Assembly: GCA_947476325.1 (NCBI GenBank)
Contig: CANJPZ010000003.1
Coordinates: forward strand, 124,001-188,000
Direction: 5' to 3'
Length of the DNA stretch: 64,000 nucleotides
Source: Caulobacteraceae bacterium
GTDB lineage: Bacteria > Pseudomonadota > Alphaproteobacteria > Caulobacterales > Caulobacteraceae
A program made the position numbers and the translations under genes. Position 1 is the stretch's first letter. The number at the start of each line of letters is the position of its first letter. Below are positions 54,365-57,009 of the stretch, piece by piece. The notes beneath the pieces are model-generated. The model ran no database searches. It saw only the letters and a program-made list of their open reading frames with translations, and had not been told where the DNA came from.

Positions 54365-54793
54365 TTAGTCGGCGCGTGCGGTAATCGAAGCGGTTTCCAC
54401 CATCTCGCCCAAAAGCGCCATGGTCGAGCGGCCAGAACATTCGAACGGATTGAGTTCCATACGCGTGAAGTATTTGAGGAGCAGGGCGGGGTTGAGTTTG
54501 TCTATGCTCACCTGGCCCATTGTCCAGGAGCCAAACCGGCGTTCACTGATTTCCTCATAGCTTAGCAGGCGCACCTGTCGATGCCGCTCGTCGCTGGCAA
54601 TCGCATTGTAAAGGTCGCAGACCTCGTCGCGGCCGCCCTCCAGAACCTGGATAAAGAGATTATCGGTCACGCAGAGCAGACCTGTCACGCCAAGGCGCGG
54701 GTTGTTTTTCCGGCATTGGGCCAGGATTTCATCAAGGCCCTGGCGATCTATCGGCGCGGCCGGACGGCTGGCGTAAAGGCAACGGACAAGCAT
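54365..54793 (-). CDS. Short BLUF-domain blue-light sensor
   Basis: A protein of 142 residues made of a BLUF domain plus a helical C-terminal extension. The FAD-site residues are Y7 (CLYAS), N31 (KNNPRLGVTGLL), Q49 (FIQVLEG), W90 and M92 (SWTMG). They correspond to Y21, N45, Q63, W104 and M106 of AppA with a constant offset of 14, so the photocycle site is intact. No output domain is fused, so it must act through a partner. The start follows the folE stop by seven bases, with GAGG inside the folE end, so it is translationally coupled to GTP cyclohydrolase. Confidence 0.93.
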   Translation of the reverse strand: MLVRCLYASRPAAPIDRQGLDEILAQCRKNNPRLGVTGLLCVTDNLFIQVLEGGRDEVCDLYNAIASDERHRQVRLLSYEEISERRFGSWTMGQVSIDKLNPALLLKYFTRMELNPFECSGRSTMALLGEMVETASITARAD

Positions 54794-54800
54794 GACGACC

Positions 54801-55514
54801 TCAGGGCTTCAGGTTCAGGAGGGACAGGAATTCGCGGCGAAGGGCCGGGTCTTTCAGGAATGACCCGCGCATTACGCTGTTAATCATCTTGGTCTCATTG
54901 TCCTTCACCCCGCGCCAATGCATGCAGAAGTGGTCGGCCTCCATCACCACGGCCAAGCCGTCCGGCCTCACCTTGTCCATCAAGAGCGTCGCCATCTGCG
55001 CGATGGCCTCTTCCTGTATTTGGGGGCGGGCCATCACCCATTCGGCGAGCCGCGAGTATTTGGAGAGGCCGATGAGGTTGGAGTGTTCGTTGGGCATGAT
55101 GCCGATCCAAAGTCGTCCCATGATCGGACAAAAGTGGTGACTGCAGGCGCTGCGCACGGTGATCGGCCCGACGATCATGAGTTCGTTGAGGGATTCCACA
55201 TTGGGGAATTCCGTGACGGGGGGCTGGGCGACATAGCGCCCCCGGAAAACCTCGGTGAGGTACATTTTGGCGACGCGGCGTGCGGTTTCCTGGGTATTGT
55301 GATCGCCCTCGGTATCGATGACCAGACTTTCCAGCACACCCCTGAACTTGCCTTCTACCTCGTCGAGCAGGGCTTCCAGCTCACCGGGCTCCAGGAAGGC
55401 GGAGATGTTGTCGTTGGCGTGAAAACGCCGGTTAGCCTTCAGAAGGCGGCGGCGCACACGTTCCGATGTGGGCCCAACGGACAGGACATCGCCGGAAACC
55501 TCGGACTCGCTCAT
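54801..55514 (-). CDS. folE: GTP cyclohydrolase I
   Basis: A protein of 237 residues catalysing the first step of folate and pterin synthesis. The zinc and GTP site is seen in SACSHHFCPIMGRLWIGIMP, and DHFCMHWRGVKDNETKMINSVMRG closes the domain. The N-terminal 45 residues are an extension before the core helix. The start at 55514 is preferred because AGGAG precedes it by seven bases; GTG 55532 is in frame. It is upstream of, and coupled to, the BLUF gene. FolE paralogues outside the folate operon occur in photolyase/lipocalin light-stress clusters of other proteobacteria, which fits the neighbours here. Confidence 0.95.
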   Translation of the reverse strand: MSESEVSGDVLSVGPTSERVRRRLLKANRRFHANDNISAFLEPGELEALLDEVEGKFRGVLESLVIDTEGDHNTQETARRVAKMYLTEVFRGRYVAQPPVTEFPNVESLNELMIVGPITVRSACSHHFCPIMGRLWIGIMPNEHSNLIGLSKYSRLAEWVMARPQIQEEAIAQMATLLMDKVRPDGLAVVMEADHFCMHWRGVKDNETKMINSVMRGSFLKDPALRREFLSLLNLKP

Positions 55515-55678
55515 TTCTTGGCTCCTGGCCACTCAGGGCCGGCTGCAGAAAGTTGGGGCGGCTAAGCACCCGCGTCGGCCGCTGGCTCACCGCCTTCGAG
55601 CAATTTCAGCGATTCAGGTCTGACGACCCTTGGCGTCTGTCGCTCAAAGGCGGCGGCCGTTCGTCACGCCAAGCGTCG

Positions 55679-56176
55679 TTACTTGGGCATAATGACCGTA
55701 TCGATGACGTGGATCACGCCATTGGTCGCCTGGATGTCGGCGGCCGTCACGCGGGCGTTGTCAACCATGACCCCGCCCATGGTCGCGTCGATCTTTACCG
55801 ACTGACCCTGAACCGTCGCTGCATTGGTGACCTTGCCTGCCAGGCTGCTGCTCATCACCTTGCCGGGGACGACATGGTAGGTCAGCACCGCCACCAGCTT
55901 GGCCTTGTTTTCCGGCTTGAGCAGGTCGGCGACTGTGCCCGGGGGCAGCTTGTTGAACGCCGCATCGGTAGGAGCGAAAACAGTGAAGGGGCCGGGACCC
56001 TTGAGGGTTTGCACCAGACCGGCCGCGTTCAGGGCGGCGGCGAGGGTGGTGAACTGGCCGGCATTGACTGCGGTATCGACAATATCGCGCGACGGGGCCG
56101 GGGTCTGGGACCAGGCCGTGGAGGCGACCACCATCGTGGAAACCAGCGCCATTCCGATGAAAGTCTTGCGAATCAT
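55679..56176 (-). CDS. Secreted fasciclin-domain protein
   Basis: A protein of 165 residues with a signal peptide (about 1-23, cleavage near AWSQT) and one FAS1 domain. The FAS1 H1 motif [15 protein letters not shown] and the YHVVPGKV segment before the H2-like [14 protein letters not shown] are clear. FAS1 proteins act in adhesion or as extracellular stress proteins. The start at 56176 follows AGGA. An ECF-like promoter lies at 56225-56254 and a dyad in the predicted leader (56201-56217). folE follows after about 164 bases in the same direction. Confidence 0.94.
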
Positions 56177-56200
56177 TATTCAAATCCTATGATTATTAGA

Positions 56201-56217
56201 CGACGCGTCATGCGTCG
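56201..56217. promoter_or_regulatory. Dyad in the fasciclin 5' leader
   Basis: CGACGC at 56201-56206 and GCGTCG at 56212-56217 flank a five-base centre, with a partly matching ATTATT/AATAAT pair outside. It lies between the predicted -10 box and the fasciclin start, so it could be a repressor operator or a leader hairpin. Function is inferred. Confidence 0.45.
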
Positions 56218-56224
56218 AATAATA

Positions 56225-56254
56225 CAATTACGCAAAGCGACCTGATTTGGATCA
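56225..56254 (-). promoter_or_regulatory. ECF-type promoter of the fasciclin gene
   Basis: Minus strand TGATCC (56254-56249), 18 bases, then TAATTG (56230-56225). The bases around it, ATCCAA and GCGTAATTGTAT, are repeated at the same 18-bp spacing upstream of the lipocalin gene. The -35 sequence TGATCC resembles the RpoE/ChrR-type (singlet-oxygen) sigma factor consensus known from Rhodobacter. The predicted transcription start is about 42 bases before the fasciclin ATG. Confidence 0.6.
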
Positions 56255-56333
56255 GCAGAGACGACAATAAATCTCCTTATTAATAATAAATGGACTAAAT
56301 AAATATTTTGAAATATCCCATTCGTTCATTATT

Positions 56334-56372
56334 GTGTAATAAAATCCCCCCTTTGGAGGCATTTTATTACAC
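56334..56372 (-). terminator. Long hairpin between lipocalin and fasciclin genes
   Basis: GTGTAATAAAAT at 56334-56345 pairs perfectly with ATTTTATTACAC at 56361-56372; inside are C-rich and G-rich arms (56346-56351, 56355-56360) with two mismatches and a three-base loop. It begins about 36 bases after the lipocalin stop, so termination of that transcript is the simplest reading, although the U-run is inside the stem. A 12-bp inverted pair, AATAATACAATT at 56218-56229 and AATTGTATTATT at 56381-56392, brackets this AT-rich gap. Confidence 0.55.
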
Positions 56373-56407
56373 AGGGTATAAATTGTATTATTGCGCTTGT
56401 GGGCCGA

Positions 56408-56950
56408 TCAGCGAAATGGCGCGTCAGGAAACTCAAGAAGGCTGGTGTCGTAACCGAATGCGCTCGCCCGTCTGGTCAGCTCGGTAATCAGGATCTGCGG
56501 CGGGGACGGGTCGCGGGTGTAGATCCAGAGTTTTTCGAACGAGGGATTGGTCGAGATAAACCATGTGTAGCCCTCGTCATGATCAAGAACCCGATATTCC
56601 CACCTGACGACGCCGAAATAGCGCACCCGAAGCTGTGTGTTCGTTCCAGGATCGAGGATATAGCCCGCCCCGGTGATTGCTCTTTCTTTTCCCTGCGGCC
56701 CGCCCTGCCGGCAGGTATCGCGAACCCTGACCTGCCGCGCGTCGAGACGCCTGTATTCTGTAGCTCCCGCCACACAGCCGTTCGTGAGCCACATTCGTGG
56801 CCGACCGATCTCATACCAGACACCCTGATAGAACCGGGCCTCGTCGAGCGGCATCCGGGTTGGCGCCGTTCCGGATGCAAGTGGCGAGCTGGCACAGCCG
56901 CCCTGCACCAGAAGCCCGGTCATCATGGCGGCGATATATAGAGACTTCAT
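56408..56950 (-). CDS. Blc-type bacterial lipocalin
   Basis: A protein of 180 residues with an N-terminal hydrophobic segment ending QGGCAS, a near-match to a lipobox, so outer-membrane lipoprotein anchoring is likely (Cys about residue 20). The lipocalin signature GVWYEIGR, a VRDTC-type central motif and LWIYTRDP near the C-terminus match the Blc family, which binds lipids or hydrophobic ligands under stress. The start at 56950 (MKSLYIA) is preferred to 56965. It shares a promoter-like element with the fasciclin gene (56980-57009). Confidence 0.92.
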   Translation of the reverse strand: MKSLYIAAMMTGLLVQGGCASSPLASGTAPTRMPLDEARFYQGVWYEIGRPRMWLTNGCVAGATEYRRLDARQVRVRDTCRQGGPQGKERAITGAGYILDPGTNTQLRVRYFGVVRWEYRVLDHDEGYTWFISTNPSFEKLWIYTRDPSPPQILITELTRRASAFGYDTSLLEFPDAPFR

Positions 56951-56979
56951 GCCCGGCCTTTGCATTGCTTGACTGGATA

Positions 56980-57009
56980 CAATTACGCTGCAGCGGCCCG
57001 GTTGGATTA
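56980..57009 (-). promoter_or_regulatory. ECF-type promoter of the lipocalin gene
   Basis: Minus strand TAATCC (57009-57004), 18 bases, then TAATTG (56985-56980). It shares ATCCAA in the -35 region and the 12-base GCGTAATTGTAT in the -10 region with the fasciclin promoter, at identical spacing. The predicted transcription start is about 23 bases before the lipocalin ATG. Confidence 0.6.

Follow-up and report, generated by a model that had tools for sequence, protein, structure and literature searches.

A fasciclin and a lipocalin, both of them secreted, are encoded by neighbouring genes, each of which is preceded by a similar pair of short elements on the minus strand of the window (the whole stretch of 64 kb analysed here), which raises the question of what factor, if any, reads both. 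An earlier note on this DNA had proposed a sigma-factor recognition pair of the form TNATCC-N18-TAATTGTAT, had likened TGATCC to the -35 box of RpoE/ChrR promoters, and had thereby placed two otherwise unconnected genes in one regulon. Our sequence comparisons indicate that both sites are very probably promoters read by an ECF11 sigma factor, the ortholog of the Rhodobacter RpoE, with which bacteria counter oxygen damage caused by light.

The paired elements and their surroundings

The two sites share one architecture with equal spacing and different spacers, as had been described: on the minus strand, the fasciclin site reads TGATCC, then AAATCAGGTCGCTTTG, then CGTA, then ATTGTAT, and the lipocalin site reads TAATCC, then AACCGGGCCGCTGCAG, then CGTA, then ATTGTAT, with spacers identical in length and different in their letters (Table 1). 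The proposal of a sigma-factor recognition pair holds, the pair being enriched at exactly one spacing genome-wide, but the elements had been misnamed: the TNATCC-N18 reading is TGATCC-N16-CGTA shifted by two bases, and the recognition pair is the published RpoE/ChrR (ECF11) promoter. The RpoE2-ChrR promoters of Shewanella and the PSPTO_1043 promoters of Pseudomonas syringae read TGATCC-N16-CGTA (PMC4336711; PMC5507510). Compared with this ECF11 promoter, the -35 element is exact before the fasciclin gene and has one mismatch before the lipocalin gene, and CGTA stands at the 16-base spacing in both; the lipocalin site, with its TAATCC, is the weaker of the two.

Table 1. Predicted promoter elements, genes and hairpins at the fasciclin-lipocalin locus (window positions)
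Feature	Position	Strand	Remarks
Predicted fasciclin promoter, -35 element TGATCC	56249..56254	(-)	exact RpoE/ChrR -35 match (PMC4336711; PMC5507510)
Predicted fasciclin promoter, -10 core CGTA	56229..56232	(-)	exact match, 16 bases from -35
Predicted lipocalin promoter, -35 element TAATCC	57004..57009	(-)	one base off TGATCC
Predicted lipocalin promoter, -10 core CGTA	56984..56987	(-)	16 bases from -35
Single-domain fasciclin (FAS1) protein with signal peptide, 165 aa	55679..56176	(-)	PF02469 E=7e-42
Blc-like lipocalin lipoprotein, 180 aa	56408..56950	(-)	PF08212 E=2e-34
Hairpin at predicted 5' end of fasciclin mRNA	56194..56224	(-)	fold -12.6 kcal/mol, z -2.3
Terminator-like hairpin between lipocalin gene (3' side) and fasciclin promoter	56333..56373	(-)	19-nt arms; -25.7 kcal/mol, z -4.0

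The fasciclin transcript would start near 56219-56221, so placed by analogy with homologous promoters, and the outer pairs of the hairpin at its 5' end may not all be transcribed. For the lipocalin gene a start at 56950 is favoured over 56965 by inspection, with AAAGG before the ATG and the lipobox LVQGGC after it. The terminator-like hairpin of the lipocalin gene and the region of the fasciclin promoter both fall within an AT-rich stretch, 56100-56400 (GC 0.40 versus about 0.60 around it). A match to 9 of the 12 bases of the sigma-70 consensus lies before the fasciclin gene (56312-56283, minus strand), and a basal promoter there could coexist with an RpoE promoter. That the housekeeping sigma factor instead drives both genes is extremely improbable: this match is weak, falls within AT-rich sequence, in which matches of this kind are expected, and has no counterpart upstream of the lipocalin gene among the matches listed.

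The seven bases past CGTA, ATTGTAT, are identical at both window promoters and absent from the regulon's other sites described below; the seven regulon sites have in common only T.ATC, CGTA and the spacing. ATTGTAT beyond CGTA is no regulon feature, and TAATTGTAT was dismissed as a -10 element, as the other regulon sites are without it. A duplication of the whole promoter was likewise dismissed because the 16-base spacers are unrelated. The stretches that bear ATTGTAT are 56222-56233 and 56977-56988, and AATTGTATTATT recurs in inverted orientation about 150 bases away, at 56381-56392. One might read the shared GCGTAATTGTAT as the binding site of an activator or repressor, or as a copied piece of promoter, with the sigma-like pair being secondary; the restriction of ATTGTAT to these two genes and the inverted copy of AATTGTATTATT would suit such a reading. 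We regard it as very improbable, however, since genes without ATTGTAT retain both the -35/-10 pair and its spacing, and the extended pattern TNATCC-N18-TAATTG has no genome match beyond the two window sites.

The sigma/anti-sigma pair and its predicted regulon

The guess of RpoE/ChrR made from TGATCC was borne out by direct observation of a sigma/anti-sigma pair in this genome: contig C11 carries an rpoE-chrR operon in which chrR directly follows the sigma gene, and the same motif lies upstream of rpoE. The best solved relative of the sigma factor is the R. sphaeroides RpoE (2q1z, E=2e-41; next best 3e-16), and its assignment to ECF11 is made from this best match together with the linkage to chrR, rather than from ECF group models. 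The ChrR protein matches TIGR02451 above the curated cut-off, its matches to solved structures are exclusively R. sphaeroides ChrR entries, the best being 2z2s, to which it aligns; the zinc ligands of the ZAS domain (H6, H31, C35 and C38) are present by position, and the C-terminal cupin domain scores above the cut-off of PF12973. Further along the operon are DUF1295, cyclopropane synthase and DUF2177 genes, and a pair of FAD oxidoreductase and DUF1365 genes is divergent from rpoE. Both promoters of this divergent region have an exact TGATCC-N16-CGTA, as in most members of the family, that of rpoE (C11:56275-56300) being the one expected of autoregulation. In most family members an in-frame ATG of rpoE lies 8-9 bases past CGTA (L019 818; relatives' loci L084-L103), and the N-terminal extension that follows this early ATG is poorly conserved; the rpoE transcript looks leaderless.

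Genome-wide pattern searches, as the earlier note had proposed, found TNATCC-N18-TAATTG exactly twice in the 2.65-Mb genome, at the two window sites, and the reversed control of this pattern had 0 matches in the same genome. When spacings of 10-22 bases were allowed between TGATCC and CGTA, the genome held 13 pairs at N16 against 36 over the 12 other spacings (3.0 each), a directly observed, four-fold enrichment (P about 2e-5). The looser TNATCC-N16-CGTA has 16 genome matches, about half of them inside long open frames: some motif copies occur by chance, and to these we assign the perfect matches that lie within hemE and antisense to rplS, genes named by inspection.

The window sites were also scored with a matrix derived from 38 sites at 29 chrR loci of other genomes (rpoE-chrR loci only); its training demanded CGTA, which makes it circular for that part, and allowed one mismatch in the -35 element. 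All training sites were found at N16, though N15 and N17 were scanned too. Across all positions of the window the fasciclin site ranked joint first and the lipocalin site third; none of 12 Markov-shuffled windows reached the fasciclin score, and in four of the 12 one position reached the lipocalin score. This bears on a reading in which the fasciclin promoter alone is real and TAATCC before the lipocalin gene is a chance near-match, all the more as position 2 of the -35 element is G in 35 training sites, C in 3 and A in 0. We nevertheless consider it unlikely. The lipocalin site is placed as a promoter should be, with 33 bases between CGTA and the ATG, and has the exact N16; the base directly after TAATCC is A, where training sites have A or G only; and the genome's second lipocalin gene (C1) has a perfect TGATCC-N16-CGTA, 67 bases from its start. 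Departures of this kind can function elsewhere, the katG promoter of P. syringae (TaATCt-N16-CGTA) being induced by a related sigma factor, and in Stenotrophomonas maltophilia a lipocalin gene is among the RpoE targets.

Taking both window sites as promoters of RpoE, we predict a regulon of seven promoters in this genome. Its likely further targets are the second lipocalin and two exported peroxiredoxins, one (C10) having a site upstream and a SOUL heme protein gene after it, and the other (C5) a site with TGATCT. A further motif match lies about 235 bases before a gene for an exported methyltransferase-like protein (C4:83739). Beside the C5 peroxiredoxin promoter there is a 33-residue piece that is 73% identical to the fasciclin (G000 C5:73065-73163; L214 about 2065-2163), perhaps a gene remnant.

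Occurrence of the promoter across relatives

Among 80 related genomes, the counts of TGATCCR at N16 versus N15 were 202:101 in the 41 with full ChrR, 58:52 in the 18 with weak ChrR matches and 56:61 in the 21 without ChrR, counts that are not independent since the genomes are related to each other. The N16 excess among these relatives is limited to genomes with full ChrR, in line with the RpoE/ChrR guess, and TGATCCR-N15-CGTA offers a compact definition of the promoter. This co-occurrence is directly seen at the homologous loci as well: N16 sites, allowing for no more than one mismatch in the -35 element, were found at 16 of 42 fasciclin or lipocalin homologue loci in genomes with full or weak ChrR, own genome included, versus 0 of 18 in genomes without ChrR (Fisher P 0.0013, or 0.0027 minus the window's own two genes, relatedness being ignored). 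Upstream of 80 fasciclins from named genomes of many phyla there were 11 sites at N16 and 0-2 at each other spacing, the former mostly from Rhodobacteraceae and also from Hyphomicrobiales, Kordiimonas and Sneathiella.

One relative (G055) combines these parts in a single cluster of fasciclin, DUF3833, DUF1365, FAD oxidoreductase, rpoE-chrR, cyclopropane synthase and lipocalin genes. Four promoters of this cluster have sites, two of them belonging to the fasciclin and lipocalin genes, which lie on either side of rpoE-chrR. The placement of the two genes in one regulon is supported, but to call them otherwise unconnected was too strong. The closest fasciclin homologue (G008, 70%) counts against the association, as it comes from a genome without ChrR and is without a site. 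The two genomes of the same genus have only distant fasciclin and lipocalin homologues.

Known RpoE-ChrR systems and a putative mechanism

Both gene families are RpoE-ChrR targets in other bacteria: the fasciclin RSP_1409 in R. sphaeroides (PMC7074977); a fasciclin under RpoE-ChrR that controls flocculation in Azospirillum, according to a citation in PMC10949492; and a lipocalin raised 165-fold upon chrR deletion in Stenotrophomonas (PMC11832516). The system of R. sphaeroides (ECF11) resembles the present one in its sigma/anti-sigma pair, autoregulation, an operon for an FAD-binding protein under the same sigma factor and a fasciclin target, RSP_1409; it differs in that here the lipocalin gene is a near neighbour of the fasciclin gene, and the apparent targets include two lipocalins and two exported peroxiredoxins. 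The RpoE2-ChrR of Shewanella oneidensis and PSPTO_1043 of P. syringae have promoters of the same form, with activity mapped or tested there, whereas fasciclin and lipocalin go unmentioned in the papers on their targets, among which are glutathione peroxidase, photolyase and catalase. In S. maltophilia RpoEc-ChrR strongly controls a lipocalin gene together with cyclopropane synthase genes, but that lipocalin lies in a gene block near rpoE, while neither lipocalin gene here lies near rpoE-chrR and each is preceded by a site of its own. The finding thus extends a known stress regulon in an ordinary way, and is well supported. It would connect a defined stress signal with two secreted proteins that are as yet uncharacterised, and it points to lipocalins and exported peroxiredoxins as components that recur in the RpoE-ChrR response across this bacterial family.

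With the signal, the release of ChrR and the roles of the proteins modelled on homologues, the response would proceed as follows. In unstressed cells RpoE would be kept inactive by ChrR, an anti-sigma factor that binds zinc and has a cupin domain at its C-terminus; singlet oxygen or organic hydroperoxides would lead to the loss of ChrR, and free RpoE would steer RNA polymerase to TGATCC-N16-CGTA. It would thereby turn on its own operon (rpoE-chrR-DUF1295-cyclopropane synthases), the divergent FAD-oxidoreductase/DUF1365 operon, and the genes for the fasciclin, two lipocalins and two exported peroxiredoxins. In R. sphaeroides the FAD-binding operon helps the proteolysis of ChrR by which RpoE is released (PMC3818230). 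By analogy, damaged envelope lipids are the probable ligands of the lipocalin, and a part in surface adhesion or aggregation is probable for the fasciclin. AstaP, a microalgal fasciclin carotenoprotein, is induced by photo-oxidative stress; a bacterial parallel to it under a singlet-oxygen sigma factor, in which fasciclin and lipocalin work as one module of the envelope, binding carotenoids or oxidised lipids and curbing the harm that singlet oxygen does outside the cytoplasm, is conceivable and decidedly unlikely.

After the fasciclin gene, a GTP cyclohydrolase I gene (folE) and a gene for a BLUF blue-light sensor follow on the same strand (54365-55532). As a co-member of the regulon folE was rejected, there being no site before it by inspection despite its strand and position; its membership is further weakened by same-genus homologues that are only 33-37% identical. 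A gene of related name, folE2, is listed among the photo-oxidative stress genes of R. sphaeroides, and a functional link between the GTP cyclohydrolase I gene adjoining the fasciclin gene and the photo-oxidative stress response is possible.
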